From Siphonodentalium dalli (taxonomy: Eukaryota; Mollusca; Scaphopoda; Gadilida; Siphonodentaliidae), in NCBI GenBank assembly GCA_032622095.1, contig CP136066.1:196344816-196408815 (forward strand): 64,000 bases of DNA, written 5' to 3'. Shown piece after piece: positions 16,201 to 54,466 of this stretch (its first letter is position 1; every line of letters starts with the position of its first letter). A program made the position numbers and the translations under genes. Under the pieces are notes generated by a model. That model was not told the origin of the DNA, made no database searches, and saw only the letters and a program-made list of their open reading frames with translations.

Positions 16201-16620
16201 CCAAACTTTTCGTGGATAATAAATACTCCATTTCGATTATCGAGCGAACAATAAATGTCCTCCGTTCATGTTGATAGCAACCTACTTGGGGATTGAATGT
16301 CAGCCATTTCTAAATGGGACGAAGATCACAAATTTCAATCGCTTGTTCTGAAAAGTTGCATTAAAATTTGAGGAAAATTCGTCAGTCTTGCGGCAATGTT
16401 TAAAATGCAGTTTTCTTGATATAGCGGGAGAACTATGTAAACTGATTTCCTCTAATCGTCGGGGGCATATGTTACTGCTGAAATATTTACTCACATTAAA
16501 CTGTCGAAAAAGAATTGTTATAGTACGCTATAAATTGGTGATAAACATTATCTGAAAAGGATTTATAAATAATTATTTATTCTCGCGATCGATCCGTTTA
16601 GTCTGATGACCCAACATAAG

Positions 16621-16853
16621 GGCCCTGTGCCAATGCATTCTCTTATATATGCGAGTCGACCATAGGTCGCCTCGCATATATAAGAGAATGCATTGGCTTA
16701 ACACATTAAAAATTATAAAATTGTTAAAGAATGTAAGAAAAAATGGTAAAAAGTGTTAAAAAAAGATTTTTTTTAGGCCAATGCATTCTCTTATATATGC
16801 GAGGCGACCTATGGTCGACTCGCATATATAAGAGAATGCATTGGCACAGGGCA
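16621..16853. mobile_element. Double-hairpin element, copy 1
   Basis: Two hairpins of about 72 bp, each nearly perfect, are arranged as inverted copies of each other around a core of about 80 bp that is A-rich. Each has a stem built from CAATGCATTCTCTTATATAT and GCGAG plus the complement. The whole unit starts GGCCCTGTGCC and ends GGCACAGGGC. The same position in copy B of the duplication (about 34.37-34.40 kb) lacks it, so it was inserted in A or lost from B after duplication. Related copies are at 25.59, 42.26 and, more diverged, 25.26 kb. Confidence 0.8.
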
Positions 16854-16949: not shown

Positions 16950-16977
16950 AACAATTTTCTCATCTATATTCTGACAG
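16950..16977 (+). promoter_or_regulatory. Probable 3' splice site before receptor A
   Basis: A pyrimidine-rich tract runs into TATATTCTGACAG, followed by GCACTCTGGCG, and the same arrangement is found before copy B. The reading frame is open through the site but has no ATG. The first codons after it (TLAISYLLVSQ in A, TLAIFVLLVSQ in B) look like the end of a signal peptide. The start codon is therefore expected on an upstream exon that I could not locate. Confidence 0.65.
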
Positions 16978-19900
16978 GCACTCTGGCGATTTCCTACTTG
17001 TTGGTGTCGCAGGAAAACTTCGTCAAATCTGAAGCGACACATTCGGCTGTCATTGGTGTGTTAACGCCTAACAATAATGGTATCGCACCGAGGGGACAAG
17101 AGTTTCAAACGGACATACGAAGAAGGGCGCCATCTGATCAGCTACAGGCCCAGACCAGCGGTGGTGTCGAAAATGCCGCGCACTTGACCGCAGATTCCCT
17201 GGAGCCCCGGAGAACCGTTTCAGATGAAAGGAGGACAGCAACTTCGCAAAATTGGATTACCGGTCGGCCAATAAACACGATTTCTCAACAAACAGAGCCT
17301 TCCGAAGATCACTGGTCAAATGTTCGCGAAATGGCGCATGAGAAACACGCGAGAACCATTCGAAGAATCAGTACAACGCCTCTGATATCAAAACCGACCA
17401 CTTCAAAAGATTGGACTAATGTAAGAGAGATACGGGGTAAGCGTTCACAAAAAGAAATTATAGCAGAACTGCCGGAGTTACCGACCGGCTTCGCTTTACC
17501 ACCAACACATTATCCTCCGTTTACTACTATGCAAACTGACGTTGTAAACATGCTGTACCCGAAACCGAAACCTGTACGCTTGCGAAGAGACGGCCCATGC
17601 AATGAGAATAAATGTGGAATATACCTCATATTTGAGTCTTGTGGATGCGATGTCGATTGTCTAATGCACGGGGACTGCTGTGAGGATTATTTATACGTCT
17701 GTTTGAAAATATATAGTGCCGAAGAAGCAGTTGAATTCATTGAACGTGGTTTCAACAACACACCTGGAGACAATTATGGCATTGAATATTTTGATTACAA
17801 GGTGTGGTTTAGAAATCATAGTATGATGCGAACTATGGATAACATAAATGCCGTAACGGTGTTTGATAGCATCCCTTTAATTGACAAATGCTATCATAGA
17901 GGGAATGTCGTTTACTGGACAAAATTTCTGTGTGAGCTACCGAACATTGACGACCCTTTCAACATTCTCGCGTCCTCCGTGGCCGTCCCTCACATCACAT
18001 ATAAAAATATATATTGTGGGATGTGCAATGGTTTTATTAACGATCACCAAACTCACATGGAACAAGACCGCAAGATGTCCGGATGAGTATTCGAAATTTG
18101 TAAATTGGACCACTATCTATGAATCGTGTAATGTCACATATTCCTATCCTGCGCTACCTAATATTGAACGAATAGTGACGATCCAGTTATCGAAAGTATT
18201 ATCTACAAACGTGTGTAATAACGAAAGGGTTCACTTGGTGTTGTGAATCCCAATGCTCAGGTTTTATGCCGAATTTCTCAGGATCCAGGTTACTTAGTAA
18301 CGAAGACGCGATGTTCTGTACTCTGGCAAACAAATCCGATTGAGTATCCTGAGAGGAATCGGTATTGTGATAAGTGTGTCGTCGAATATAACACTGAGTG
18401 CAAAGCAGAAAAAACCGGAAGACCAATGCGTAACGAACTACCGCCGGGTATAGACATTTTATTCAATTTCGATCTCTCAGATATTACCAGCTTCGCAAGT
18501 GGTATAACAAGGCCGCTCTTGGCATGCCACGAAAATCAGATACTACTTGCGAGTATGGGTCAGTGTGTTGACATCAATCGGCAATGTTTCCGATCCTCAG
18601 AAAAGACATGTGACGACTCTCGATTTAAGAACAGAACTGGGCAACTGTATGGGAGACAAAATAGACAATATTACATCAAGTACTTCATGACTCAATCAAT
18701 TGAAGAATTATTTGGCAGTCATTCGAGAGATACCCGAATAGGATATTTCTTATCACATCTTAACAGCCAGTTTGAAAAAATAGTGAATTTGTCAAATGAT
18801 GGTGTGCCACGTATGACATATTATGAACGTGCCAAATGCGTGAACCATACGTGGAACTCTGGTACATTTATGAAAATTAAAATGAATGCGACTGTTTCGG
18901 AAGAGAAACATGGCGGTCCCAGAAGAACTCGAGAAACTATGTTATTCAAACCGCTTTTCTTGTTCCCAGATTTCGACATTAAACAATGCGACGAGACTCA
19001 GGATTTGCATGCAGCTCCAAAAATCATTCGAACACTTATTTCAATCGAAAGTGTTGAAAGTTTCTTTAAAATCCGATAACATATATGAAATTAAGAAAAT
19101 GCTGGAGGGGGGTTTTCCAGACGACATAATACCCAACCAACTAACAGTCGTTGTGACCAACGTCGACGAGAGACCACTGGAGTGCAAGTCAGGAGAGACA
19201 ACCCTACTTTGCGACGCAGAATTCATAGGAGCAACACACAATCAGAGTGGCTATCTGTACCTCGATGGTTCTGTTTTCGCATCTTTGCTTCACATTCCCT
19301 TTGCAGAAGTTGTTTTCTCCACACGCGATGTTCCTTGCAAAACATTGGCACTAGTTTGTCTACATTATCCTGTTGATCTCAAATGTGATATGGCACAGTT
19401 ACGTGGTAACATTAGCATTTACAACGACACAACAGTTATTCTGAACGGCACATCGCTTGATCTTACTGGTTCGGTCTTCGCAGTTAGAGACGAGACACTG
19501 TATATATGCGCGTCCAATCTTACAGATGTCGCACGGCCACGTCGGCAGTCAATTAGGACTATGCTGTCGATCGTTCTACTTGGATTCTCTGTTCTCTCAC
19601 TTTTGGCCACAATTGTTATCTACCTTTCTTGCAAGAAACTTTTGAACCTACCTGGCAAATGCCTTGTTGCTTTTGCTTCTTGTTTGATGTTTGCGCAAAG
19701 TCTCTTATTATTTACAACCACCAACCACAAGGAATTATGTTATTTTATCGCCGTTTCCCTACACTGGTTCCTGTTAGCATCTTTCTCATGGGTTACAATT
19801 ATCTCATTTGACTTCAAGCGAACGTTCGTCAACAGCACACCAACTGGAAATCCATCAAAAACATTTATACTTTACGCAATAGTTGCATCGATGCTTCCAA

Positions 19901-20400
19901 CGATGGTCACCATTATATCCGTCATTCTCGACTTTGTTCGCCCAGGTGGGTTCCATATCGGCTACGGTGATGGTGAAATTTGCTGGATATCTGTCCCCAT
20001 GGCAACAGTGTATATGTTTGCTCTCCCAGCCTTACTGACATTAGTGTACGACGCCGTCTGCTTCGTTTTGATCATTGTCTCAATTGAAAGGCAAGCCGGC
20101 GAATCTGCCAGAATATTGCATCAAAAACAGGATAGGAGAAGATTGTTCGCATATATGAGAATAGCATCGATCATGGGTCTTACTTGGATTTTTGGTTTTC
20201 TCTCATCCTTCACGGGCATCGAGGCTTTAGGTTATTTCCATGTAATCACCAACAGTTCTCAGGGAGTCTTTGTAGCAGCGTCATTTCTTATAAAGAAGAG
20301 AGTTTATGCCTGCATTAAGGAGATATTCAGCTCTCAGCAACAATTTGAACGACCGGCGAGGGATTCGAAGGGAGCTGGCACAGCCTCTACATCATTATGA
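16978..20400 (+). pseudogene. Receptor A: somatomedin-B plus seven-helix (secretin/Methuselah-like) GPCR, frameshifted
   Basis: The order is: end of a signal peptide, a Ser/Thr/Arg-rich linker, an eight-Cys somatomedin-B-like domain (17598-17703; CxxxxC...CxCDxxC...CC...C pattern), a Cys-rich ectodomain with a KNIYCGMCNG motif, then seven helices (about 19560-20310). Helix 1 is VLLGFSVLSLLATIVIYL and helix 6 holds GLTWIFGF. Such receptors sit in the plasma membrane and signal through G proteins; the ligand is unknown. Compared with copy B there are three lesions: +1 base near 18047-18051, -4 bases near 18230, and a 4-base TGCA gain near 19007-19014. The first two together restore frame and leave about 60 wrong residues. 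The third shifts the frame for good. No canonical GPS cleavage motif is seen. Either a recent pseudogene or, less likely, assembly errors. Confidence 0.88.
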
Positions 20401-20568
20401 CTTCTTCGTCAGTTTTTCATGGAATGGACGAATGTTCATGAACCATAAGCAGACGACAGACAGACAATTCAGCAGCAGAAGGATTTCCTTATTGTTGAGT
20501 GGCAATGTTATAGGTTATATATTCATATGACCATTTCGTCAATATATTTATAGTACAGGAATGGTTAA

Positions 20569-20812
20569 AGGGGTACTTTACACAAAATCCGGCCCGTTAT
20601 GGGACCATCTCCTTTTATACTTTTTATACTGATCATAATTTATGCAACAATTGAATGAATTTGAGCCATGGATTTGTGCAAAATACACTCGTGTGCTATA
20701 TGAATGAGGCATACAGCATGGTAATTATAATTAATTAATTTGTTGCATATATTCTGTTGAGTATAAAAGGAGATGGTCCCATAAGTGGCCGAATTTAGTG
20801 TACAGTGCCCGT
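20569..20812. mobile_element. TTAA-flanked inverted-repeat element (MITE-like)
   Basis: This is a 244-bp unit flanked by TTAA (20565-20568 and 20813-20816). Its ends pair as AGGGGTACTTTACAC and ACGGGCACTGTACAC, and a long inner arm (ATGGGACCATCTCCTTTTATAC and its complement) also pairs. It is absent from the matching 3' flank of receptor B (near 38.0 kb). TTAA targets are typical of piggyBac-type transposases. No protein is encoded, so it would depend on a transposase elsewhere. Confidence 0.75.
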
Positions 20813-21530
20813 TTAAACAATATGCCGGTAATATTTCTAGGCAGACGGGAATGGTACTGGACACATTTCGCTGAATGAACGACGACGATTATTATTACGA
20901 ATAGCTATTTGCATTCGTACATTTTCGGACGGTCCAAAAACCTAGTCTGTGAGACAATCGTGCTTGACGCTCATAGTAATTATGTTGTTGTCAGGTTATA
21001 TCGTAGCGCATTGCGTTTGGCAAGATTCTCACGTTTCACAACGAAGAACGATTTGATTACCACCAAGAGGTAAAAATTAAGGCTGCATGGCGATCACAAT
21101 TAAGGACATACATGTAATCTCAGAATCATCTCCAACATTGAGTAGCTGAGAAACGATCTCGAACTGATCACTATTTGATGTATTTGTGAGTTTTGTTGAA
21201 AATCCGAAACCGTAATCGTAACAGCGAATAGGGAAAACGTCAACGAATAGAAAGAACACACATTCTGGTGACGTAGTACCCTATTCGTAATAATTATCTG
21301 TCTTAGTTCACTAGGCGTAAGATGTATAATAATTGTCGTGTCGTTTTACGTACATGTACGTACACGTATATGCGATTTGTAGCGTGTTAGTTTAGACATC
21401 GATATATCTATATTGAATCCTTCTTACACAAGAGTATGGTGTTCCACAAGAATGTTCGTTAGGGACATATCGTGTTCATTTTGCGCACCATACGAGTTCA
21501 TCAGGTTAAGTGGCGTAAACTTTCACAAAC

Positions 21531-22025
21531 ACGTGACAGCAAGTTTCACTTGTTTTTACACATTATGTTTCCATGACTTCTCGTAAACATTTTAATGAAC
21601 TAGGTCCCATGGAAACACTTTAGCCTGATAACGCTTATCCGTAAATATTGTTTGATTTAAGGAGGCGCCCCATTAATGAATTTTCATTACAAACTATCAA
21701 TTTGAAGGAGAAAATCATTTTATTCCACACCCATTGACATGAGGCACATGTATTCAACGGAATCCCAGTCATTCAATACACATTAGTGTATACCTCTAGT
21801 GGAATACAAGCCGGGACTATTTTTGTCGACGTCGCCAAGTAAGGTGACGTACATTACGTCAATCATCCGCTTCCGGTGACCCCCCCCCCCCTCGATAATT
21901 ACTGATTATCCACATAAATAAATCACAACAAAGTTAGCTATAGTTTCAATGAAGGTGACAGTCATGGATTGAACTTATCTGACTGAACGATGCAGAATAA
22001 ATACAGAACACAACTTGCATCATAA
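21531..22025. other. Intergenic DNA
   Basis: No gene recognised. A C homopolymer of about 10 bases lies near 21881-21891. Confidence 0.45.
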
Positions 22026-22119
22026 TCTCGAATCTTTTATCGAACTCGTTGAGGACGACGCATAGTCGCGAAATATAGCCTTGCGCCATCCGCAACTCAT
22101 TCGATAAAAGATTCTCGAT
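22026..22119. repeat. Inverted repeat
   Basis: Arms at about 22026-22052 and 22093-22119 (TCGAATCTTTTATCGAACTC and its near complement) enclose a spacer of about 40 bp. Possibly a small foldback element. No flanking duplication is clear. Confidence 0.65.
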
Positions 22120-22625
22120 TAAGATATATATATCTTTATTGCCTCCTTCTATGGAGATATTGAATATATTACACTAATATGTACAGAAGACAGTATATAT
22201 AGTGATATGGTTTCTTAGAGAAGAACATTAATATTGAAGGTATTTAAGATCAGAATGCTTGCCTATGCGTCAGAGTGTAAAAGGAAATACTCACGATGGA
22301 TGCGACCCACTGGCATTGGTAGGACGAAGTGAGTTATATACTTCGGTAAGTAATAAAATGTCGTGCGTGACAGACAAAACAAAAACAAAAAACAAACAAA
22401 CAAACAAACAAAAAATGTTGTAGGAGGCGCAAGTTGAATCAATGTTGATATGCCTTCAATATATACCGTAAGCAAGATTTCAAGTTTTACATTGTTTTCC
22501 GTGTGATACAAATGCCAGACATTCTGAGCTTAAAGGAGGATACAATATAAGTAAAGAATGCTATGTTTTTGGTATCTCACATCCGTATGGTCGGAAGTAA
22601 GTTTTGTAGGTAATCTTCTAGCAGA

Positions 22626-22930
22626 TCATCTTATCGACCTAGTCATTGCCAGGAGAAATGAAGCAGATGTATCTATAATCTGCTCGCGGCAGTGGTCAAT
22701 CTGCCATGTGATGCGTGGATCATCGGAACCAAGGAGCAGAGCATATAAATCACATCTTGGGAGGCTGTCTAGATAAATACCTACGAAAATTCCATGGTGG
22801 TTGATTATTGTGTCCAATAAGTGATTTCTCAAAGCAAGAATAAACATGGAAGTGCAAGAATATAAGGCATGGTCAATTTCATTTTCATACACATATAACA
22901 ACACCTGTTCGCCCCCACAATATGAGATAT
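22626..22930 (-). pseudogene. LINE reverse-transcriptase C-terminal remnant
   Basis: A minus-strand frame of about 100 codons reads like the extreme C-terminus of a non-LTR retrotransposon polyprotein. It has a degenerate zinc-finger segment (CGGEQ...HALYSCTSMF...LRNHLLDTI), then a hydrophobic tail with DLYALLLGSDDPRITW, then a stop at 22626. In the family this follows the reverse transcriptase. No reverse-transcriptase motif is visible upstream, so only the 3' coding end survives. The assignment rests on motif resemblance, not on a search. Confidence 0.45.
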
Positions 22931-23464
22931 ATGTTCAAATTATATAACCAAGTGGGGTTTTTAAAATAACACAGATTTGTTATGTAGGTCGGTAGAGAGT
23001 TTGACAGGAAATATTTAAAAGAAAAACCACACTGCATTATCTAGACTATGCACCCACCTAGGGTACGCGCTCAGTCTACCGTCTGAAATGAAGACTGCCA
23101 GCGAGAAATTAAATAAAACATTTTCGTTGCATATTTTAGTTTTTTGAAGCCATTTGTTAAACATTCAACCACCTTTTCAGTAATATGGCAGACATAAACA
23201 CTCATTACTGACTCATCTTTTTCAGACAATATGTAGTTTTGTGGTGATTTTTCTTTAAAAAAAATATAGTTCTGCAAATATTCCTACGTTATATTTTCGA
23301 CTTTATAATGTTCCCTGTCAAAGCTTCAAAGAGTTCCCAGGTTTTGTACTGGTGGATTATTATCTCTGCCAGAGTAGAGCTTAATGGTATGATCTAGAGC
23401 ATGCCCCAGTTACGAAGCTATATACAATATATGTATATGGCAGGAATCAAGTATTATAAGGGAA
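22931..23464. other. No recognisable feature
   Basis: AT-rich DNA with no coding or repeat structure that I can support. Confidence 0.4.
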
Positions 23465-25205
23465 ACTTCAAAGTTGTCATATCGGCTGAACTAGTCAAAG
23501 AAACCTGCTGACGAAAGGGCTACTATTTCCCATATCGACAAAACAATCAACCCTAAACTCCCTACAAGTGATGTAGTCGTCAATATAGACCTGAATATGA
23601 AATTTGAGAATTACTGAATGCTTAGTCATGGCGAATAGCACAAACAGGGTCGGGAAGATGCGTCATAATTTGCTCGAACTTATGGCAGTATATCACCCCT
23701 GACAAATGCAACATTCGTTCATTTCTTCGATATTTTCCAAACACATCAGCAAGTTACGAGACTATAATGAGCCTATAATTTCAACTACTCATCGCTGATA
23801 CTTCAACAACTGGATATAGAACATAATTGTTTTTAATGAGATTTCGGCGTTGAAATTGCATGCCTCGATGAAATATTATTAATTATTTATACAGGCGAAA
23901 AAACAATGAATACTAACTTACTCTGTAGAGAGATCTGGCCGCCATTTCCGTGAAAATTATGACGTAAGCTCCCGGCCCTGACAAAGGCATGAATCAAACT
24001 TTTCAAACCTGATCAACCAATAGATTACCCGATCAACCAATCGATTACCTGATCAACCAATCGATTACCTGATCAACCAATTGATTATTTACTCCATTCC
24101 ATACATGTGAAGGGTGTGTCTTCGTCATCTGGAAATGTACTAATCAATGAACAATGAAATAATAACAATAAAATAACAAATATCTGAGTTAAAGACATAT
24201 TATGTACTTGTTCGGGTGCGTGAAACTGATGAGTTAGTGTTCAGGCGCTATGCCAACTGGAGGAATGTAACATTATACTAATATCGCCGAAAATCTTAAG
24301 CAAATCGACCGTACCATTCTATAGAAAACATCGTCTGAACTGCGCTCAATTGTAAATATTTACGACTCAATTGGGGACGAATTTATCGGCGATAAACTAA
24401 CGAAACCCATTTTGTCATCAACAGTAGCTGCATTTAATTAGTAGATAAGTATGACGGTGTGTGTTGTCAATTTGGATATAATATTTGTAAAAATAACTAC
24501 TTTAAACAAGATTATTCTCCGTTTCTATTTGATCACACTACCGGAGTGCTTCACATCACTTTAACGCATTGACTAAGACCAACTCAAGGGTTTGTTAGAA
24601 GGGGTTAATATTTCCCATACCGACTAACTAGTCCATACCAAAAAACTATACATGTAATGTGTGTGTCATAAACCTGGATATGACATACTTGTATGAGATT
24701 TAATGAAAAAAACTTATTTCAGATAATTATAATGATTAGCACAACGTCAATGGATGAGTGGGTTAATGTTCATCAAACTGATCAACCAATCAATACCAAG
24801 CACGGTCCGTGTGGAGTATGTCATAAACGTGGGCATAAAATATGAAAATGATGAAATGTTACATACCCGAGTTATCGCATTTAATAGCGCAAACTTAATG
24901 TTTAAATCATGAGATACTTGGTTGGATAGGTTTAATATTTTCCAAACTGATCAAGCGATTGCTACCAAAAGCTATTCACGTGAAAGGTACATGTATGTCG
25001 TCTTAAACATGTACATGGAATATGAACACGATCGGATATGAATACACGAGTTGGGCATTGGTTATACCAACAGGCGGAGAGACGGACCGACAGATGAAAG
25101 ACGGAGTTTATCCGACATTACATATACCATATAAACATGGTATGGTACGGTACATATGAAAGCAAAACAGACATTCTGACCTCTGGAACAAGAGAATATG
25201 CGACT
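23465..25205. repeat. Dispersed repeat R1, copy a (longest)
   Basis: This copy matches 52445-53710 (copy b) and, in part, 26957-27358 plus 28233-28260 (copy c). The most conserved stretch starts GTCAATATAGACCTGAATAT and ends GACGTAAGCTCCCGGCCCTG. Its 3' part carries the 'gacggac...ctatccgacattacata' segment. Copy a contains about 380 bp (24.2-24.58 kb) missing from b. No coding capacity is recognised. Confidence 0.8.
24011..24090. repeat. 20-bp minisatellite, four units
   Basis: GATCAACCAATCGATTACCT is repeated four times head to tail with a few changes. It sits inside R1 copy a only. The other R1 copies have a single diverged unit or none, so the expansion is local. Confidence 0.85.
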
Positions 25206-25216
25206 TGCGATATTAA

Positions 25217-25466
25217 CCCTTTCATGACTGGAGTGCGCTGGTGCAGCATTAAATACCTCGTACCAGTGCATTCTCTTATATATGCGTGTCTCACATAGGG
25301 AGCCTCGCATATATTAGAGAATGCACTGTTACAAGTTCAAGGTAAATATTGTTAGGACAATCATATCTTATATATGCGAGACGCCCTATGGGCGACTCGC
25401 ATATATTAGAGAATGCATTGGCACAGGGTTTTCGCAAAATTTCAGGAAGCTCCAGTCATGAAAGGG
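25217..25466. mobile_element. TTAA-flanked MITE with CCCTTTCATGACTGGAG termini
   Basis: The 250-bp unit is flanked by TTAA (25213-25216, 25467-25470) and has perfect 17-bp terminal inverted repeats, CCCTTTCATGACTGGAG. TTAA target plus CCC-starting ends fit a piggyBac-type non-autonomous element. Inside are two diverged versions of the TATATATGCGAG hairpin module also seen at 16.6, 25.6 and 42.3 kb. No coding frame. Confidence 0.85.
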
Positions 25467-25479
25467 TTAACTACTCGTA

Positions 25480-26165
25480 AATATACGAGAGTCATTGTCA
25501 AAACTAACGTCCGAATAGCATATTTAATAATTTGACAAAGCGCGATAAGTATCAGACACTGTTATGAATTAACCCTTTACCCAACAGAATGGCCCTGTGC
25601 CAATGCATTCTCTTATATATGCGAGTCGACCATAGGTCGCCTCGCATATATAAGAGAATGCATTGGCTTAACACATATTAAAAATGATAAAATTGTCAAA
25701 GAATGTAGAAAAATATTATTAAAAATGTTAAAAAATGTAAGAAAAAATTATAAAATTGTTAAAGAATGTAAGAAAAAATGGTAAAAAGTGTTATGCCCTG
25801 TGCCAATGCATTCTCTTATATATGCGAGGCGACCTATGGTCGACTCGCATATATAAGAGAATTCACTGGCACAGGGCATAACTGTAACCATCACAATGTG
25901 GTCAATGAACCGGTTCCAATGATATCCATATTTCTATGGTGTTATTGAGACAGACCGAAGATATTTTAGGCTGTTGAAGCTTTATTTGGGCGTTTTTGGC
26001 CGTTTTGTTGGGTAAATGGTTAAACCCACACACTTATCTGATTCCCGTATACTCTCTACGGGAAGTTACAGCTTTGGATGAAGCTATTAATGTCGCGTCT
26101 GTCGTTGGGGTAAGACCATATATCGTCGATCTGTTGTCGTGATAAATAATGTTTCATATATATAA
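25480..26165. repeat. Dispersed repeat R2, copy a (interrupted)
   Basis: R2 starts near 'acgagagtcattgtcaaaactaac' and contains CCCGTATACTCTCTACGGG, then a run that is open in all copies up to a shared TGA. Copy a is split by the TTAA element at 25573-26019. Removing that element restores a continuous match to copies c (43.3 kb) and d (54.5 kb). A short frame (about 34 codons ending TGA, containing YSLRE-TA-DEAINVA) is kept in this copy. Confidence 0.75.
25573..26019. mobile_element. TTAA-flanked element carrying the double hairpin, copy 2
   Basis: TTAA at 25569-25572 and 26020-26023 flanks imperfect termini (CCCTTTACCCAACAGAATGG and CCATTTACCCAACAAAACGG). Inside are the two inverted 72-bp hairpins (about 25593-25667 and 25797-25876) separated by an A-rich core of about 130 bp. 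The element interrupts dispersed repeat R2, and related R2 copies read straight across, supporting a real insertion. Confidence 0.85.
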
Positions 26166-26439
26166 ATATACGGGAGTCCTTGTCAATACTTCATCTATAT
26201 AGGTTATTTAATAATTTGACAAAGCGCGATAAGTATCATGCTATAAAGTCCACTCAATTTTCTGGTTCCCTTGTACTCTCTACGGGAAATTACAGCTTTT
26301 GAAGCCACTATTGCTTGCGCGTTTGTTGTTAGAGAAAGACCAGATACAGTCGATATGTTGTCGTGATGAAGAACTGTTCATATGCCACACGTGAGTAAGC
26401 TTTATACAACCCTTCGACTCCCTCTTGGCAATATATACA

Positions 26440-26493
<54 letters not shown>

Positions 26494-26790
26494 ACCACGA
26501 TGTCCAAGGAAGATTCATTCAAGGTTCAGGCCCAGGAATAACAATATAATCGTTTATAGAATACAATTTGGACCGCACGTCTTATCACCGGAAGAAACGA
26601 CAGTTGTTTCAAGATTGATGCTGCAGTTTCTCATCTATTGTCATTTTTACTGATCGAGAATGTTTTTCCAAAAACTGATATGTTCCTAAGTGTAAGGATC
26701 GAATTAATAATTGATATGTCCATCAGTCGGGTCGATAAAATTTGAAACGCATTTTATATATCAGTTAAAGGGACATACGATCTTCGCAGT
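26166..26790. repeat. Dispersed repeat R2, copy b, with (TA)n
   Basis: This copy is homologous to 43325-43880 and 54467-54835. It includes a (TA)n microsatellite of about 50 bases (26442-26490) at the point where the other copies have shorter ATATAT runs. On the minus strand each copy has a possible splice donor (CATCGTG/GTGAG), which may be coincidence. Confidence 0.75.
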
Positions 26791-26859
26791 GGGTAAATGT
26801 GAACAATAAACAAGGTATGTAAACCATCGTAAACTAGGTCACAACGAGACCCGTTATTA

Positions 26860-26956
26860 ACGTTGACCATGATAATTTTCGATGTTTTGCCTATATTATG
26901 GCAAAACAAACCCCGTTATTAAAGTTTACTATGCTAGTTTTGTTTTTTGCCTAAAA
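26860..26956. repeat. Outlying piece of the 175-bp tandem family
   Basis: The first half (to about 26905) is in inverted orientation relative to the array at 28.3-29.7 kb (GACCCGTTATTAACGTTGAC). The last 48 bp (about 26908-26956) are a direct copy of 28261-28308. R1 copy c lies between the two direct copies. Confidence 0.65.
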
Positions 26957-28260
26957 TTCCGTCAATATAGACCTGAATATGAAATTTGAGCATTACTGAA
27001 TGCTTAGTCATGGCGAATAGCACAAACAGGGTCGGGAAGATATGTCATATATAATTTGCTCGAACATGGCGGCAGTATATCACTCCTGGCAAATGCAACA
27101 TTCGTTTATTTCTTCTATATTTTCCAAACACATCAGCAAGTTGCTAGACTATAATAAGCCATTTCAACTACTCATCGCTGATACTTCAACAACTGGATAT
27201 AGAACATAATTGTTTTTAATGAGATTTCGGCGTTGAAATTGCATGCCTCGATGAAATATTATTAATTATTTATACAGGCGAAAAACCAATGAATACTAAC
27301 TTACTCTGTAGAGACATCTGGCGCCCCGTGAACATTATGACGTAAGCTCCCGGCCCTGCACCCTAAATCTAGTTGGATGAACCTTGTATACAACTCGTTG
27401 GGTGCGAATTTGTTGTGTACTTATTATCCAACAGTTTAGTACGATGTACACAACTGATTGCGTGAACTGTCTTCTGTGGTATTACTTTCATACCACGTTG
27501 GATAAAACCGCCACGTGACCGGGTCATCCAATAGCAGCGCGTTTCCGGTGCGGGCGAGCATGCGATTTTTGGCTCCAAATATTTTAAAACAAGATGGATG
27601 ACTGCGTGAAAAAACTCCCGAGCGACTGGAAAATGGGACAAGACGTCGTGGATAGCTTTGCCGGTATAGTATACCTTTGTTATAATTATTCTTTGTACGA
27701 TATACTGATTATGTAGGCTTTATTTATTGAGTGTATATTTATTTATATTTGCCAAATTTTGAAGTTTACAAATTTACACAACTGCTGACGGCACTAATTT
27801 GACTAAAGTAGTACACTCATACACTCAAAATAAAGCCTATATAATCAGTGTATCGTACACAGAATAATTATAACAAATGCATACTATACCGACAAAGCTA
27901 TCCACGACATCTTGCCCCATTTTACTTTCCAATCAACGTTGGGTAAATCAACAATCAACAAATGTCATCCAACTCTACCCAACACCCAACGGTTCAATAA
28001 ACGTAGATAGGTGCTGTGGGCAATTAACGTTGATTGAGTGTTGTGTGAAATTTCATCCAACACGTTGTGTAATTAACAAACAACCGTTGGTAGTAAATAT
28101 ATATGCAACGTTGTGTAAAAGTGTATCCAACAAAATTGTCATGCAACTTTTCACACAACGTAGATAGGTGCTGTGGGCATACAACGGTTGATTGACTGTT
28201 GGATAACTTTTTATCCAACTAGATTTAGGGTGTGACAAAGGCATGAATCAAACTTTTCAA
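26957..28260. repeat. Dispersed repeat R1, copy c, interrupted by an element
   Basis: 26957-27358 and 28233-28260 together match the core of R1 copies a and b. The element at 27359-28232 splits it. Flanking direct copies of about 48 bp (26908-26956, 28261-28308) suggest this R1 fragment was itself placed inside the 175-bp array. Confidence 0.75.
27359..28232. mobile_element. CAC...GTG inverted-repeat element with internal foldback, 874 bp
   Basis: The termini are perfect 20-bp inverted repeats, CACCCTAAATCTAGTTGGAT. TG flanks both sides (27357-27358, 28233-28234). The empty site is visible in R1 copy a (near 23991, ...GGCCCTGACAAAGG), which gives a 2-bp target duplication. Subterminal regions are full of short ATCCAAC/GTTGGAT and CAACGTTG motifs, and arms of about 110 bp (27624-27745, 27815-27933) pair. 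CAC ends, short target duplication and reiterated subterminal motifs recall CACTA/EnSpm elements, but the class is not proven. No transposase is present. Confidence 0.85.
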
Positions 28261-29700
28261 ACCCCTTTATTAACGTTTACTATGCTAGTTTTGTTTTTGC
28301 CTAAAATGCCATCTAGGTGGCGTGTTTGCCATATATATATTGGCAAAATATGTGGCGATCTTCTGACGTAATAATATTATCTCCGTCTATATTAACAATA
28401 TCTGTGAAATAAAATGCCATGTAGGGGTGTGTTTTGCCATAGTATAGGCAACACATCGAAAATTGGCATAGTCAACGTTAATAACGGGTTTCGTGATGAC
28501 CTATAGTTCTATATTGATACTTTATCTGTCTACATATACAATATTTGCCATATCAAATACCATCTAGGGGGTGTGTTTTTCCATAATATTTGCAAAACAA
28601 TGATAACCTATTTCTACGAATCCCAGCTGCGTGTGGCGATTTTCTGACGTAATACTATTATCTTAGTATATATTAACAATATATGCCAAATAAAATGCCA
28701 TCTAGGGGGTGTGTTGTGCTATAATATAGGCAAAACATCGAAAATTAGCATAGTCAACGCTAATAACGGGTCTCGTGATGACCTAGTACTACGAATTCCA
28801 GCTGCATGTGGCGATTTTGTGACGTAGTGATATTATATATGTCTACATATACAATATCTGCCATATCAAATACCATCTAGGGGGTGTGTTTTGCCATAAT
28901 ATAGGCAAAGCATCGAAAATTTGCATGGTAAACAGTAATAACGGGTCTCGCGATGACCTAGTTCCACGAATTCCAGCGGCCTGTGACAATTTTATGTAAT
29001 GATATTATATCTGTCCATATTGACAATATCTGCCAAATAAAATACCATCTAGGGGGTGTGTTTTGCCATAATATAGGCAAAGCATCGAAAATTTGCATGG
29101 TAAACAGTAATAACGAGTCTCGTGATGACCTAGATCTACGAATCCCAGCTGTGTGTGGCGATTTTAGGAAGCAATTATATTTTATCTGTCTACATAAACA
29201 ATATCTGCCATATCAAATACCAGCTAAGGTGTGTTTTTTCCATATAATATCGGCAAAACATCGAAAATTAGATTAGTCAACGTTAATAACGGGTCTGGTG
29301 ATGACCTAGTTCTACGAATTCAAGCTGCCTGTTGCGATTTTATGACGTATTGACATTATATATTTCTACGTATACAATATCTGCCAAATCAAATACCATC
29401 CACGGGGTGTGTTTTGCCATAATATACATGTAGGCAAAACATAGAATATTTGCATGGTCAACGTTAATAACAGGTCTCGTGATGACCTAGTTCTTCGAAT
29501 CCCAGCTGCCTGTGGCGATATTCTGACGTAATGATATTAACTCAGTCTATATTAGCAATATCTGCCAAATAAATGCCATCTAGGGTGTTTTGCCATAATA
29601 TAGCCCAAAACATCGAAAATAGCACAGTCAACGTTAATATTAACTTTCTGGTCTCGTGGTGACCAAGTTCTACGAATCCCAACTGCGTGTACCGATTTAT
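28261..29700. repeat. Tandem array, about 175-bp unit, eight or more copies
   Basis: Anchors such as CCATCTAGGGGGTGTGTTTT recur near 28310, 28424, 28561, 28700, 28872, 29047, 29219, 29398 and 29577. The spacing is irregular at first (115-140 bp) and then settles at 172-179 bp. Each unit also holds GTTAATAACGGGTCTCGTGA and CATCGAAAATT. No protein coding. Similar unit lengths are known in pearl/HINE-type elements of bivalves, but no such ends were identified. Confidence 0.85.
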
Positions 29701-30980
29701 CAACTGTTATGATATATACGTTCCCGAAGAATGTAGATCGGCCACTAAGGGCATGTTCACTTTGTTCATCAAAGACTAGCCAATTATCGCGTGTCTTTTA
29801 TTTAATTGTGTCGGCATTTGAAATTGACTCTGATGTTTTCGCCGCTGAAGTGCAATGGCATGCACAAATCATTCTAGTCAAACTAGTAATTTAACCCAAT
29901 TGGTATATAATATATACCATCATCGGCAACCAATCGTCTTCACACCCTTCATATGAGCGATGTCTATATTGTTCGATAAATATGTCAAACAACTCGTACA
30001 GTATTACTAAGACCATCATTAGTGTAATAGATCAACTGGAGATAACAGAGATATTCTGTCAGTACATACAAATATTTCAGCGATGGATGAACTGAAATTT
30101 GATATCTAGATTTTCTATATAATCTCTCAAAAGACGGCCCAGCACCCGTGGTTCAAACTCTTGTTGGCAAGACACCCAAAACATTCCAAATGTGTGATGG
30201 CCGCAAGTATTGGCAGCTTCCAGTGAGTGCATTCTAGTTGATAATGAAAATAAGAACAAATAACTTTTTTATATTTTTCTTGATAATAATATTTTAACAA
30301 ACATGCGCCCATCGCGAATGTTTTCCGTATAGCATTAACAGACTTGTGATTTAAGGGATGTTGTGGGAGTAAGTGTCAAACCAAACAATTGCACCACCCA
30401 GAGTATCCCCGTCGATGTGGATTTCCGGTGAGGTTTATTAATTTCCTGGTGTGCCTTAATTCGAAGGATGTCTTAGTATGGGCTATAATGACTAAATACA
30501 ACCTATATGAATACCAAACATTATTGAAATCGGTTCATATTTGTTTGAGCTATCAAGCCGAACAGACCGCAATCGCGAACAATGAGGTGTTGCATTCCGG
30601 GGAGGTAATTCGAGCATTACAGTCCAAGGTACTTCCGGTTGTTTATGTATCGGCTTAGGAGCCACGTTAAATTGTGTGATCTGTCACCGAAGAAGGTGCG
30701 AAAACTACACCAGTGTGTGTGCCATTAGCTGTTAATTGATCCGGGATTTTATATTCCGTAATTAATTAATTTAGGGTTATGAAGCACATGCAATCGATGC
30801 GTTATTTTAATTACAAGTATAAAAAAAAGTGCGATTAGGATTAGCATGTCGCACTTGTTCGCGGCGCAAGAAGGGACTGCTGAGTACTCTACGTAATCGC
30901 ATTTTGATTATGTGTTAGAAACATTAAAACAAACTTCTACTACAAATTCGAGGGCAAGCTTATTGTCACGAACTAACAAT
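29701..30980. other. Intergenic DNA
   Basis: No gene recognised. 30508-30590 resembles 15212-15290 (aaacattattgaaat-ggttc-tattt), so part is a dispersed repeat. Open frames have no domain content. Confidence 0.45.
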
Positions 30981-31041
30981 AGTGTCACACCACAGGGTAT
31001 ATAAAACATGGCGAAAATCGAGAAGGAAACAAACACAAAAA

Positions 31042-31974
31042 ATGGCTTCTGCAAAAAAAACAACAACATCACCAACTTCCTCAAAATACAACAACTTGAC
31101 GCTTGTACAACTCACCGTAATGAACTACGAAAACGAAATCAACCTACGAGTATCTGGTCGAAAGAGCGAACTTATTGATCGGTAAGTATAGGTGTGTGAA
31201 TATTTGGCATGTGTGTAATCACCTGAATTATACAATCTCTGGATGGGGCCTTCATACATGTAAAGAGTGAATATAGTAATATGCAAATGCCAAACAACCT
31301 TTACCTGTCAGTCTATAATTTCGTTTTGTTTGTTTTCCTCTCTGAATACAGTATGTCATTTTAGCTCTTTGAATGGACATACGACCTTCAAGTCTGACTA
31401 TTTTGTTTAAATGTTATAATCCACTTGGACCTGATAGTTCTGGATATACATGACATCTGGTGTATGTGTTATTTGGGAATATGATAGAAAGTAAGAAGTT
31501 TGTAATTGAGATAATATATAGTGAAGATGAATGACAAAATAAATGAAACATACATGTAAAACATAAACAAAAATATATAAAATATTATAAAATAATAATT
31601 CCATACCTGTTTTTAATTTTAACATACGATGTACTTCGTATGGTACATACATAGCTTACCATAATTACAATGTACTCCCACACACTTAGCTTACCATAAT
31701 TTACTATCTATTTTAAGTTTAGAGTGTCAAGACAAAAATTACACCACAGGGAGATTGACCGAAAAATGTGTACGAGGAACGATATCTTAAGTTTGCGAGG
31801 ATGGCTCTACATGATGGAAAGTTTTACACAAAGGCACAGTGTTGTGCTTCTATGAAAAGAATGTTTCATACAATCTGGATATCATACAAACGGGGTAATG
31901 GTAGAATGCCAATGTATGTATGTAAGCATGTATGTGCCATGTTATACGGCTTAATGCGTTTTTGTTTTCCTTAG
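31042..31974 (+). pseudogene. SAP plus SWIM-like gene remnant
   Basis: Exon 1 (ATG at 31042, good context) encodes a basic Ser/Thr/Lys start, then a SAP DNA-binding motif. The SAP motif is split over two frames: LTLVQL in one, RNELRKRN in the next, VSGRKSELIDR back in the first, so at least two small indels are present. A canonical donor GTAAGT starts at 31182. A second segment (about 31768-31974, acceptor likely at 31749) reads YLKFARMALHDGKFYTKAQ, then CKHVCAMLYGL, which resembles the C-terminal CxH half of a SWIM zinc finger whose CxC half is missing. Such SAP/SWIM proteins occur in many aquatic invertebrates, sometimes with a YqaJ-type nuclease. No YqaJ part is seen. Decayed. Confidence 0.5.
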
Positions 31975-32194
31975 AAAATATTTCTAGAATAATTATGAGC
32001 AGATTGAATGCAAATGTAGAAAACACTTCTGATTCTGTATCATTAATTTATTATATGTATACACATGTTATTATCATTAAAATAATGTTATGAGAACTTT
32101 ATTTTGTTTTTTCTTGGCGGGGTTTCCAACAAATTTGCTTGTAACATATTTTACTAGAACATTCTCATCCCTGCATGCATGTCTGATATACACC
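31975..32194. other. Short spacer between two convergent gene remnants
   Basis: No coding signal. The plus-strand SAP/SWIM remnant and the minus-strand THAP gene end toward each other across this spacer. Confidence 0.5.
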
Positions 32195-33165
32195 TCACAC
32201 TATTTTGGCCATGTCACTCCTTCCGATAACTTCACTTGATGTTTTCTTAAACAAGGTCCAACGAAATAAATACGGTACTGCGTCGGACTTCAGGATGTTT
32301 CTGGTGCCCTTCTTAGCTGAAAAGTATAGACAATTTTGAGTTCTTATCCCAAACATCCAGAAAGAGGAAAACAGCGCACAAAAATCAAATACAAATTTAA
32401 AGAAACAGTGTACTGAGGATTTATCTGGCATATATACATGTTTCATTTTAACTGATTTATTTGTTATTCTTCAATTTTATTTCGACATTTAAATGTTATT
32501 AGCTGCAAATAGACACTTGAATGTGTTACTTCAGGCAACACCAAAAGAGTTTTAAAAAACTGGTATTTCAATTTAAACAAATAAATTATCACCCCCTTCA
32601 ACAAGGTGAAAACAGTACTGTAATTTTACTGAAATATAAACTTATTTCCTGGAAATTCGCTGCATGTAACTTTTATGTACCAAATTTTCTCATTTTTGTT
32701 TATTATGTGAGAATATGTTGTAAGGACAATATGACTAATTTAATATTTCTTGGCTCTTTTGGGTAAGTCATCTTATAAAAGTTGACTTGTAAATACCGTT
32801 TGTTGGCAAACAAGCTCAATAAGATGTGATATAATACGAAAGTTATGAAATGTTGGCTGAATGAAATGTTGAAGGAAAATTTTGATTCCCTGATCCTTGA
32901 TTGTTATTTAAAATTATTGGAAAATAGTAAACTCATAATAACAGTGTATACATTACGATATATATTACTTACAAGGATCATGTTTGCACATGTAGTCATC
33001 CTCGGTGAATTGTCCTGCACAAACGACACTAAAACTGCTGTATTCCCACTGTCCATTTCGGCCATCGCTTCGTCGAATGGCTACTGTCCATTTTTTTCGT
33101 AACTCTTTTGCCGCTTCGTCGTCACCTTTCGGGAATACATATCCACATTGCACAACACAATGCAC
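32195..33165 (-). CDS. THAP-domain protein, two exons (start unresolved, probably decayed)
   Basis: Exon 1 (about 33165-32973) encodes CVVQC, FPKG, ELRKKWTVAIRR and VVCAGQFTEDDY. It ends at a perfect donor (GTAAGT on the minus strand, 32972-32967). Exon 2 (32316-32195), after a pyrimidine-rich tract and CAG, continues in frame with KKGTRNILKSDAVPYLF, then about 23 residues and a stop. Together they make one full-length THAP zinc-finger domain (about 85 residues), a DNA-binding module also found in P-element-type transposases. Two oddities: the CxxH zinc ligand is CxxQ here, and no in-frame ATG precedes the domain (an in-frame stop lies at 33181-33183). An out-of-frame ATG giving MPPQCCAL is close by, suggesting a frameshift at the start. 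Confidence 0.6.
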
Positions 33166-34446
33166 AACATTGTGGTGGCATTATTATTAGTTTGGTAATG
33201 AAGAATTAACAGAATAACGATCCGAACAAGTCGAAAGACAGACATAATGAAACTGACAGATGACAAGCGAAAATAAGTTTGTTTACTTCTAACCGGAAAT
33301 GGACATGGCAGTTATAGCCACCTGGCGGTCGATGTCGATAATGGGACGCAATCACAAAACAGTACCCCATTGGCAAACGAAGGACGATATCTCAGACACA
33401 ATGAAAGTGCAAACAACATCATTGCGCACACTTTTGAAGGCATTCGTGATGGCAAATCTCCACACCAAATTTCATTCAGATCCGATAAACAATTGCTTAG
33501 AAATCTGCGCAAATGGACATAAAGAAATACTTTCCAGATAAACGAAGAAGGACAACTCTAAAATGAAAAACGTGAACAACCTCATTTGCCCCTCTTTTGA
33601 AAGCTGTCACGATGCTAACCTCCATACCAAATTTTATTTAGACCATATAACCATTGGTTAAGTTAAATATGCACGGACGGACAAAATACCCACATTTCTA
33701 GATAGATCCATATGAAGTTTGGTGACGATCGGGTGAGGGATGTGGCCTGGAGGGTGTGCTGAATGATTTAGTTATGCAAAGAGTAAAATCTATTTTCACA
33801 CAAAGTCCCATTACTGAATAAGGGCCGTAACTCTGGAAAAAACAATGGACGAATCCCGCTGTTTGTTAATAATATTGTCTCCATGTTGGTTCATCAACTT
33901 ACCGAATATCTTTCAAATCCGAATGACGATGACCAATATATAAAGCTTCAAACTTCGTTTGCCGTGGATAACAAATAATCCATTTCAATTATGGAGCGAA
34001 CAATAAATGTCCCCCGTTCCTGTTGATAGCAATTTATTTGGGGATTGACACGACAGACCCGTCAGTCATTTCTAAATGGGACGAAGATCACAAATTTCAA
34101 TTGGCATATTATGCTGATGAAAAGTTACATTTGTTCGGAAAATTTTAGGAAAATTGGTCAATCTTAGTACGGCGATGTTTCAAATGCACGTTCGTGATAT
34201 AGCGGTAGAATTTTGTAAACTGATTTCATCTAATCGTCGGGTGCATATATTACTGATAAAATATTTACTCACCTTCAAATGTCGAAAATACGTGTAAATA
34301 AGCTATAAATTGGGGAAATATTAGCCAAAAACGATTTAGAAATATAGATTTATTCTCGCGATCGACCCGTTTAGTCTGATGAGCCATTGCGACAACGCGC
34401 ATTGGCAATTCCTACACATCTAACATATTCAAATATACATACAAAG

Positions 34447-34474
34447 TAAACTATTTTCATCTATATTCTGACAG
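34447..34474 (+). promoter_or_regulatory. Probable 3' splice site before receptor B
   Basis: TTTTCATCTATATTCTGACAG precedes GCACTCTGGCG, as in copy A. Conservation of the acceptor with diverged sequence just upstream supports a shared upstream exon. Confidence 0.65.
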
Positions 34475-37400
34475 GCACTCTGGCGATTTTCGTCTTGTTG
34501 GTGTCGCAGGAAAACCTCCTCAGATCTGGATCGACACATTCGGCTGCCACTGGTGTGTCAACGCCTAGCAATGATGATATAACACAGAGGGGAGAAGAGT
34601 TCCAAACGGACACACGAATAAGGGCACTATCTGGTCAGCTACATAACTGGATTACCGGTCGACCAATAAACACGATTTCTCAACAAACAGAGCCCTCCGA
34701 AGATCACTGGTCAATTGATCGCAAAGGGACGTATGAGAAACACGCGAGCACCATTCGAAGAATCCGTACAGCAGATCTGATATCAAAACCGACCACTTCA
34801 AAAGATTGGACTAATGTAAGAGAAACACCGATTATGCGTTCGCAAAAAGAAATTAGAGCCGTAAGAAGCCCGAATTTACAGACCAGCTTCTCTGTATCAC
34901 CAACACATTCTCCGTTCGCTACTATTCAGACTGACATTGTCACTACACTTTATCCGAAACCGAAACCTGTACGCTTGGGAAGAGACGGTCCATGCAATGA
35001 GAATAAATGTGGAATATACCACACATCTGAAGTTTGTGGATGCGATGTCGATTGTATAATCCTCGGAGACTGCTGTGAGGATTATTTCTACGTCTGTTTG
35101 AAAATATTTATAGCCGAAGAAGCCGTTGATGTCATTGAACGTGGTTTCAACATCACACCTGGAGACAATTATGGCATCGCATATTTTGATAACAAGGTGT
35201 GGTTTAGAGATAATAGTGTGATGCGAACTGTGGCGAACATACATGCCGTAACTAGATATAACAGCATCCCCTTAATTGACAAATGCTATCAAAGAGGGAA
35301 AATTGTTCACTGGACAAAATTTCTGTGTGAGCTACCGAACATTGACGACCCTTTCAATATTCTCGCGTCCTCCGTGGCCGTCTCTCACATCACATTTAAA
35401 AATATCTATTGTGGGATGTGCAATGGTTTTATTAACGATCACCTACTCACATGGAACAAGACCGCAAGATGTCCGAATGAGTATTTGAAATTTTTGAGTT
35501 GGGTCACTATCTATGAGTCGTGTAATGTCACATATTCCTATCATGGGATACCTACTATTGAACGAATAGTGGAGATCCATGTCACGAAAGAACGATCTAC
35601 AAACGTGTGTGATAACGAAAGGGTAAACTCACTTGGTGTTGTGAATCCGAACGCTCAGGTTTTATGCCGAATTTCTCAGAATCGTGGTTACGTAGAGTCG
35701 TCGGTGCAATGTTCTGTACTCTGGCAAACAAATCCGATTGAGTATCGTGAGAGGAATCGGTATTGTGATAAGTGTGTGGCGGATTACTCTACTGGGTGCA
35801 GAGGATGGTCAGGACATTCCGGAATTGACTTCGAACTACCGCCGGGTATAGACATTTTATTCAATTTCGATCTCTCGGATATTACCAGCTTCGCAAGTGG
35901 TGTAGAAAGGCCGATATTGGCATGCCACGAAAATCAGATACTGCTTGCGAGTATGGGTCGGTGTGTTGATATCAACCTGCAATGTTTCCGATCCTCAGCA
36001 AAAGCATGTGACGACTCTCGATTTAAGAACAGAACTGGACAACTGTATGGAAGACCAAACAGACAATATTTCATCAAGTATTTCATCACTGAATCAATTA
36101 AAGAACTATTTGGCAGTCATTCGAGAGATACCCGAATAGGATATTTCTTATCACATCTTAACAGCCAGTTTGAACAAATTGTGAGTTTGGCAGATGATGG
36201 TTCGCCACGTATGACATACTATGAACGTGCCCAGTGCGTGAACCATACGTGGAACTCTGTAACTTTTTTGAAAATTAAAACGAATGTAAATGTTTCGGAA
36301 GAGAAACCTGCCGGTCCAAGAATATCCCGAGAAACAATGTTATTCAAGCCGCTTCTCGTGTTCCCAGATTTCGACATTAAACAATGCGACGAGACTCAGG
36401 ATTTGCAGCTCCAAGAATCCTTCACACACTTACTTCAATCGAAAGTGTTGAAAGTTTCGTTCAAATCAGATAACATCTATGAAATCAAGAAAATACTTGA
36501 GGAGAGTTTTCCAGACGACATTATGCCCAACCAACTAACACTAGTTTTGACCAACGTCGACGAGAGACCACTGGATTGCAAGTCAGGAGAGACAACCCTA
36601 CTTTGCGACGCATAATTCATTGGAGCAACACACAATAAGAGTGACTATCTTTACCTCGATGGGTCTGTTTTCGCATCTTTGCTTCACATTCCCTTTGAAG
36701 AAGTTGTGTTCTCCACACGAGATGTTCCTTGCAAAACATTGGCACTAGTTTGTCTACATTATCCCGTTGATTTGAAATGCGATATGGCGCAATTACACGG
36801 TAACATTAGCATGTACAACGAAACAACAATTATTCTGAACGGCACATCACTTGATCTTACTGGATCGGTCTTCACGGTTAGAGACGAGACACTGTATATA
36901 TGCGCGTCCAATCTCACAGATGTCGCATGGCCACGTGGAAAGTCAGTGAGGAGTATACTGTCGAACGTTCTACTTGGATTCTCTGTTCTCTCACTTTTGG
37001 CCACAATTGTTATCTACCTTTCTTGCAAGAAACTTTTGAACCTACCTGGCAAATGCCTTGTTGCTTTTGCTTCTTGTTTGATGTTTGCGCAAATTCTCTT
37101 ATTATTGACAACCACCAACCACAAGCAGTTCTGTTATTTTATCGCCGTTTCCCTCCATTGGTTCCTGTTAGCGTCTTTCTCATGGGTTACAATTATCTCA
37201 TTTGACTTCAAAAGAACGTTCGTCAACAACACACCGACCGGAAATCCATCGAAAACATTTATACGTTACGCAATAGTTGCATCGATCCTTCCAACGATGG
37301 TTACAATTATTTCCGTCATTCTCGACTTTGTTCGCACAGGAGGGTTCCACATCGGCTACGGCGATGGTGGCATTTGTTGGATATCTGTCCCAATGGCAAC

Positions 37401-37794
37401 AGTGTATATGTTTGCTCTGCCGGTCTTACTGACATTAATATACGACGCCGTCTGCTTCGTTTGGATAATTATCTCGATTGAAAGGCAAGCCGGCCAATCT
37501 GCCAGAATATTGCATCGAAAACCGGATAAGAAAAGATTTTTCGCATATGTGAGAATAGCGTCGATCATGGGTCTGACTTGGATTTTCGGTTTTCTCTCAT
37601 CCTTCACGGGCATCGAGGCATTAGGCTATCTCTATGTAATCACCAACAGTTCTCAGGGAATCTTTGTAGCAGCGTCATTTCTTATAAAGAAGAGAGTTTA
37701 TGCCTGCATTAAGGAGAAATTCAGCACTCAGCAACGAATTGAACGACCGGCGAGGGATTCGAGGGGAACTGGCACAGCCTCTACGTCATTATGA
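34475..37794 (+). pseudogene. Receptor B: somatomedin-B plus seven-helix GPCR with one premature stop
   Basis: One continuous frame covers about 1,100 codons except for a single TAA at 36613-36615, where copy A has GAA (Glu). The layout matches copy A: signal-peptide end, linker, somatomedin-B-like domain with all eight Cys (34993-35097), a large Cys-rich ectodomain with KNIYCGMCNG, then seven helices (about 36960-37705) including FGFLSSFTGIEALG and NSSQGIFVAASF. The stop falls about 115 codons before helix 1, so normal translation would give an ectodomain without an anchor. The rest of the frame, including the helices, is undamaged, so the nonsense change is recent, polymorphic or an error. 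No canonical GPS motif. Confidence 0.88.
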
Positions 37795-38679
37795 CTTCTT
37801 CGTCAGCTGTTCGTGGAATGGACGAATGTTCAAGAACCATACGCAGATGACAGACATAAAATACAAACAAGTGCAGAAGGGTTCCTTATCGTTGATGGGA
37901 AATGTTTATATACTATGTATATTTATACATGTATACATAACAGATAGTATATTCATATGACCATTTTCTAAGAGAACTACTCGTCAATAGGTTTATAGTA
38001 CACAATATGCCGGTACCATTTCTAGGCAGACGGGAGTGGTACTGGACACCTTTCGCATAATGAACGACGGCAGATTATTATTACGAATAGCTACTTGTAG
38101 TCGGTCCAAAAACAATCGTGCTTGCCACTCGCAATAATTATTAGTTATCAAATCATAGCTCAAAAAGCACTTTGTGTTTGGCAAGATTCTCGCGTTTCAT
38201 AACGAAGAACGAATTGATTATCACTAATAGGTAAAAATTAATGCCACATGGCGATCACAATTTAAGGACATTATCTCAGAATCATCTCCAACATTGAGGA
38301 GCTGAGAAACGATCACGAATTTATTACTATGTCATGTATTTGTGAGTTTTGTTGAAAATCCGAAACCGTAATCGTAACAGCGAATGGGGAAAACGACAAC
38401 GAATAGAAATAACACACATTCTAGTGACGTAGTACCCTATTCGTAATAATCATCTGTCGTAGTTTATTAATGCGAAAGATGTATAATAATTGTCGTGTCG
38501 TTTTACGTGCATGTACGTGTTCATTTTGCGCATCATACGAGTTCATCAGGTCAAGTGGCTTAAACTTTCAGTTTAATGCATGACTTTATTCAACTACTTT
38601 ACATGCGCTTTGATGAACTGAGTACTCCGATTCTCTACCGAGCGTTCTGTTCTCTGCGAATAGCTCGATTCTCTGCTAA

Positions 38680-39470: not shown

Positions 39471-39473
39471 TAA

Positions 39474-39699
39474 GATAAAGTAGTACATGCCGCCCGCTTG
39501 ATTTCTACTAATATGACTACATAATTAGTCATAAACATGACACACAATGAGAGGCGGCCATATCCATTTACATGTGTAATCAGATCCATTGGCACGTCCG
39601 ATATTATACAGCTGCTTCAAAGAACACTTAATTGCAAATAAAACATTTACACCAAGTGTCTCCCTCTGTATAGCGTCCTATGATGTCCCTAATATTAAT
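39474..39699. other. No recognisable feature
   Basis: Short AT-rich spacer. Confidence 0.4.
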
Positions 39700-40400: not shown

Positions 40401-40409
40401 CTCGTGTCC

Positions 40410-44539: not shown

Positions 44540-44870
44540 CATGATTGCATCTCAGTTTCACGCGCGTAAATTTTCGGGACTAAACCGGACAGTAATTTCT
44601 AAGTGGGTGTCTTTGGAACACTGAGACACTCCTTGACGATATTCAATATATGCGTTTGTATGAGGAGAACAGGTCTTTCGATTGGTATATAGGTTGTGAC
44701 AAAAAATGCCTGATATGATTGTGAGAATTTGCATTTTCTTGGATATTTTGCGGAAGAAATCGTCTCGCGGCGATGATTCAAAGGTATTTTTTCGCGATAG
44801 AACGCTGACAACTGATTTCAACCGATCGTCGGGGGCCGACTATCAGTGACGAAATATTTACTTACCTTTA
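44540..44870. repeat. Third copy of the receptor 5'-flank sequence
   Basis: This stretch aligns by eye with 16270-16510 and 34050-34290. Shared landmarks are 'atttctaa(a/g)tggg', 'gcggc(a/g)atg-tt-aaa', 'aactgatttc', 'atcgtcggg' and 'gaaatatttact'. No receptor coding sequence follows it. It is either a fragment of a third duplicate or a mobile segment that the receptors share. Confidence 0.5.
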
Positions 44871-54240: not shown

Positions 54241-54251
54241 GTATTAGTATA

Positions 54252-54464: not shown

Positions 54465-54466
54465 TA

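Follow-up and report, generated by a model that had tools for sequence, protein, structure and literature searches.

Clusters of seven-transmembrane receptors that carry somatomedin B (SMB) domains have been described in several animals. In planarians the expanded PARF1 receptor cluster has one SMB domain in each member, and NvX is a cluster from Nematostella (PMC3261222). In amphioxus an expansion of ten adhesion GPCR genes with somatomedin B and kringle domains is described (PMC2246102).

In this report we focused on two SMB receptor genes, A and B, of the scaphopod Siphonodentalium dalli. They lie in a stretch of 64,000 nucleotides that was analysed as a whole and is called the window below (C6:196344816-196408815 of the 2.23-Gb, nine-contig assembly GCA_032622095.1). 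Two complementary broken genes side by side appear to be an oddity, and the main explanation is an ordinary one with a plain cause, the turnover of a big receptor family. The points of interest are the apparently chimeric structure of a third copy, C, and a possible pattern of gene conversion across the family.

Results

Copies A and B carry separate lesions

The features of A and B are listed by window position, all on the forward strand (+); the 13 close copies mentioned are defined in the next section.

15330-16613 (+): 5' flank of A, intron-like and non-coding, matching B 33435-34386 and, in pieces, the copies on C7 (flank comparisons)
16955-16977 (+): 3' splice-site-like sequence before the exon of A, pyrimidine-rich and ending in GACAG, common to 13/13 close copies
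16978-20400 (+): predicted last coding exon of A, an SMB and 7tm_2 receptor gene with three indels (frames, Pfam, alignments)
18047-18051 (+): first lesion of A, one nucleotide more than in B, C and the other close copies, at about 18049 (A/B and 13-copy alignments)
18229-18231 (+): second lesion of A, loss of four nucleotides at about 18230 (same alignments)
19006-19013 (+): third lesion of A, gain of four nucleotides at about 19007, a tandemly repeated 4-mer (same alignments)
20814-21361 (+): 3' flank of A, 83% identical to B 37999-38518 and 84% to C (flank comparisons)
33435-34386 (+): 5' flank of B, common to A (flank comparisons)
34475-37794 (+): predicted last coding exon of B, open to 36612, interrupted by TAA and open again over 36616-37794 (frames, Pfam, A/B alignment)
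36613-36615 (+): lesion of B, an in-frame TAA where 12/12 other close copies have a sense codon (alignments)
37999-38518 (+): 3' flank of B, common to A (flank comparison)

The initial annotation, which described A and B as copies of one architecture with shared flanks and independent damage, is borne out on each of these points. Both contain one Somatomedin_B stretch above the Pfam cut-off (23.1), as does C, and a 7tm_2 match well over its cut-off of 20.6 bits (A 67.6, B 62.6, C 59.6), which places them among class B2/adhesion-like receptors. Their flanks match on both sides, in blocks of 80-87% identity between A 15330-16613 and B 33435-34386, and at 83% 3' of the exons. The lesions—three frame-changing indels in A (+1, -4 and +4), found in 0/12 other close copies, and the single TAA in B—are all private, and in the alignments each gene is indeed intact where the other is broken. 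Since the first two lesions of A sum to -3, its frame is lost only over the ~180 nt between them; the first open frame ends at 18086, the second spans 18222-19079 and the third (18886-20400) carries the seven-helix part. The base at 16978 is the first after the boundary in GACAG/G, and its equivalent in B, from the A/B alignment, is 34475.

The window also holds imperfect palindromes (54250-54466, 27630-27923, 16622-16852 and 4846-5015), each 170-300 bp long, which are probably short mobile elements, and a tandem satellite at 58564-63428 (period 175, 27.8 copies), flanked by units of 172-bp period in the opposite orientation (57757-58365 and 63437-64000). A second, more diverged period-175 array of 6.2 copies is at 28601-29698. 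Elsewhere in the assembly, probes of telomere ends gave no repeat, and profile searches gave six matches to Tyrosinase and none to Chitin_bind_4, for which the control was negative too.

A large family with many broken copies

What had been taken for a tandem pair turned out to be two of at least three tandem copies within a far larger family. Comparison of B's 3' open frame with the genome gave at least 88 matches (100 candidates scored), which, grouped by place, fall into no fewer than 38 related loci with identities of at least 44%, set in arrays on C4-C8. These comprise at least 14 loci on C4, 9 on C7, 7 on C8, 4 on C5 and 4 on C6, one of the C8 loci having pieces of 43-67% identity. The sequences in hand cover 34 of the 38 (A and B in the window and 32 fetched), those left unfetched being C4:77277795, C4:175598383, C4:175622153 and C8:148849460-148850311. 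The third tandem copy, C, is located outside the window, 39.8 kb 3' of B (C6:196418877-196422416), and its last exon is an open frame of 1179 codons. Family loci, B and C included, hold 17 of the 20 matches of a genome-wide SMB search; A is below the threshold of that search, yet over the Pfam cut-off when scanned singly. Two C7 loci 47.7 Mb apart, L003 (139.91 Mb) and L005 (187.60 Mb), are almost identical (5' dS 0.004).

Thirteen close copies (A, B, C and L002-L011) were aligned on C's frame. Because the first exon was not found, "open" refers here to the last coding exon only. By this definition eight copies are open (C and L003-L009) and five are broken: A, B, L002 (TGA at codon 490), L010 (TGA at codon 272) and L011 (+2 at nt 2526). 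No lesion is common to two of the five, and the frame-breaking changes are absent from the open relatives, as in duplicated or unitary pseudogenes. The remaining coding indels come in threes, with two exceptions: in L002 a +5 and a +1 lie nine bases from each other, and L003, L005, L007 and L010 share a -2 within the last six codons, which alters the tail only. Two further loci, L012 and L013, were excluded for a 5' half that could be aligned only piecewise; both are broken, and with them the count is 7/15. Breakage of two neighbouring copies is thus not the unusual event it had been thought to be. L012 (C4:170358200-170362600) and L013 (C4:170372100-170376500) are 99.94% identical over 3,196 bp and 13.9 kb apart, and represent either the renewed duplication of an already dead copy or a repeat created by the assembly. 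Mutual complementation of A and B was considered as well and is not needed, given the open frames of C and of at least seven copies on C7.

Relaxed selection, another suggestion of the initial annotation, left no signal. At private codons, where one copy differs and the other 12 agree, nonsynonymous and synonymous changes (N:S) number 65:57 among the broken copies against 43:39 among the open ones (Fisher p = 1.0), the test being a weak one of conserved codons and few events. Broken copies therefore display no visible decay relative to open ones by private N:S among the 13 close copies, and this likeness suggests that the losses are probably recent. In pairs with more than a few differences, pairwise dN/dS is mostly ~0.4-0.9 in the 5' part versus 0.2-0.5 in the 3' part.

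A probable single large exon

Before nt 92 of C's frame the 13 copies differ by indels of any length, as an intron would give, and GACAG/G is kept in all. The open frame has no ATG in its first 105 or more codons in L003-L008, and none in 298 in L009. From the splice-site-like sequence common to the copies, the intron-like flanks and the absence of an early ATG, we infer as the simplest reading an upstream first exon followed by a phase-1 intron within the signal peptide, in which case one large exon of ~3.4 kb would encode the ectodomain together with the seven helices. No exon 1 turned up in the 4 to 6.5 kb upstream of A, B, C, L003, L004, L006 and L008, or in short flanks of other copies; upstream blocks common to the copies appear non-coding, and none of them could be identified as a signal-peptide exon. 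In the 5' flank of C (L001 242-1948) there is an open frame of 568 codons with an RVT_1 match (E 5.2e-19).

Copy C appears to contain the 3' half of B

A long tract that begins inside the coding exon of B is found again, nearly unchanged, at the C locus, and two further features of the window bear on it.

36220-46399 (+): tract near-identical to the C locus (C6:196420842-196430895), its 5' edge within B's coding exon (alignment)
46200-46664 (+): dispersed repeat, unbroken across 46399 in the window and cut at this point at the C locus (genomic matches)

The tract aligns over 10,185 columns with 37 mismatches (~10,050 sites, 0.37% divergence) and 5 gap places, which account for 136 columns, 128 of them in one place. 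Within the exon, B and C differ at 225/1744 sites (12.9%) over nt 92-1964 of C's frame and at 8/1575 over nt 1966-3540. Their longest run of identity was not reached in 1000 permutations, a test based on shuffled sites, in which the slower evolution of the 3' half is a confounder. Beyond the tract, no homology to B reappears over a further 25 kb of C's flank.

The 3' edge offers a clue to direction. In all 40 scored matches (of 187 candidates), one of which is the window itself, the dispersed repeat runs across 46399. For the junction on the C side, 39/41 matches begin at query positions 184-280 (416 candidates, 40 scored), and the remaining two are the place itself and B's tract, so that two sequences which are separate in 39 matches adjoin at this junction. 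Because the repeat is unbroken in the window and joined at C, the C side carries the new join. C thus looks like a chimera with the 3' half of B, and copying looks to have run from B to C, a direction for which this one junction is the evidence. The TAA of B counts among the 37 differences, and none of the 12 other copies has it, which suggests that it arose in B after the copying and is probably the later event.

Phylogenetic trees were considered as evidence for copying and dropped. The 5' tree and the 3' tree both unite B and C, with support of 42 and 100 respectively. Of the two topologies, the 3' one is rejected by the 5' data (p-AU 4.5e-5), and the 5' one is not rejected by the 3' data (p-AU 0.095). 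As both trees agree on this pair, the argument for copying is founded on the step in identity.

Synonymous divergence along the exon

Across 39 pairs of copies on different chromosomes, the ratio of 5' to 3' dS is 0.75-1.40 (mean 0.95). It is >1.40 in 11/32 pairs on the same chromosome, from which 7 of 39 had been left out for a 5' dS under 0.1. The ratio is 16.7 for B-C, 2.1-3.5 for eight pairs of an L003-type with an L004-type copy and just over 1.40 for L003-L008 and L009-L011; A-B (0.88) and A-C (1.11) show no raised value. As all eight intermediate pairs set the L003 type against the L004 type, they represent one or few events.

Fifteen distant copies were compared as well, with L019, L026, L028, L029 and L034 left out as broken, short or alone, and L001 serving only for numbering. 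In a more distant clade of the C5 and C8 arrays the ratio is 1.55-2.53 for nine pairs from one array and 1.07-1.49 for 12 pairs that combine the two arrays. The C4 arrays are mixed, with 5' versus 3' dS of 0.298 versus 0.110 for L030-L032, 0.309 versus 0.283 for L032-L033 and, in the reverse sense, 0.020 versus 0.048 for L024-L027. The pattern fits gene conversion favouring the 3' half within arrays, which is a hint and not proof, as the pairs are interdependent and misalignment of the fast 5' part can inflate 5' dS.

Discussion

Tandem receptor families generally follow birth-and-death evolution. We consider it likely that A and B are recently lost members of a large tandem SMB/7tm_2 family and that C was copied in part from B. 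Such a family would grow and shrink by DNA duplication, ectopic recombination and pseudogene formation. At this locus, ~10 kb of B, from the interior of its coding exon to 46399, would have been copied into C ~40 kb downstream, a segment that comprises B's 3' half and 8.6 kb of flank; alternatively, the B and C loci may have recombined by unequal crossover, the rest then being deleted. Either event would leave C with its own ectodomain and the 3' half of B. B would have gained its TAA afterwards, and A would have been lost separately through its three indels. The presence of other close copies whose frames are open probably made these losses tolerable.

A broader and more tentative idea, to which we lend some credence though we would not bet on it, is that ectodomains stay distinct within the arrays, whereas gene conversion or unequal recombination repeatedly replaces the membrane-proximal and seven-helix half with that of a neighbour. 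B and C would then be a case in which the donor was inactivated once its signalling half had been placed under another ectodomain. If true, this would be a modular route to new combinations of ectodomain and signalling; if the pattern holds, ligand diversity would be made in the ectodomains and the signalling half shared by recombination within arrays.

Errors of assembly or consensus, by which A and B would be intact in the animal or B and C would be two haplotypes placed in tandem, are an improbable explanation. A mismatch of 0.37%, as seen in the B/C tract, is no more than alleles may show, and L012/L013 are another near-identical tandem. However, a difference of 12.9% in the 5' part is hardly expected between alleles. 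The lesions, moreover, are of several kinds—loss of 4 nt, a tandem repeat of 4 nt, insertion of 1 nt and a substitution—so that one type of error is unlikely to account for them; the -4, the +4 and the single substitution are atypical of homopolymer slips, and with 5/13 close copies broken, each differently, many errors would be required.

It is less probable still that B, and perhaps A, are working truncated genes whose stable message encodes a soluble SMB ectodomain without helices. Such a message is conceivable because the stops sit in the last coding exon. In favour of this reading, B has no stop between the splice-site-like sequence and 36612, a stretch that includes the SMB domain, and the exon that contains the stop extends to the normal stop codon. 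However, the lesion of B is a single recent substitution; private N:S in its 5' part (9:6) gives no sign of special constraint, and neither AATAAA nor ATTAAA occurs within 1.6 kb after B's stop, one being present 1.5 kb after A's. An origin as processed, reverse-transcribed pseudogenes, which the single uninterrupted 3.4-kb exon might evoke, has next to nothing to recommend it, since the loss of introns and flanks that it entails is not seen: the copies have intron-like 5' flanks, 3' flanks and splice-site-like sequence in common, the shared flanks being the main refutation, and many are open.

Read as recent losses and partial copying within a large tandem family, the A/B/C genes can be set beside known systems. 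Their seven-helix part matches that of vertebrate adhesion GPCRs, with ADGRG6 and ADGRD1 as the best solved matches (best E 1.9e-13), and they differ from these in that A, B and C have no Pfam GPS or GAIN match under hmmscan filters that drop weak matches, a GAIN domain with its GPS cleavage site before helix 1 being the mark of adhesion GPCRs proper. The amphioxus expansion is likewise an enlarged group of adhesion GPCRs with SMB domains among its members; unlike it, with its kringle domains, copy C has no kringle or other named extracellular domain beyond SMB by Pfam up to E = 10. PARF1 and NvX resemble the A/B/C family in architecture, as lineage-expanded clusters of adhesion-like 7TM receptors with a single SMB domain. 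Against the 12 planarian members, the S. dalli family numbers at least 38 loci, with broken and apparently recombinant copies among them.
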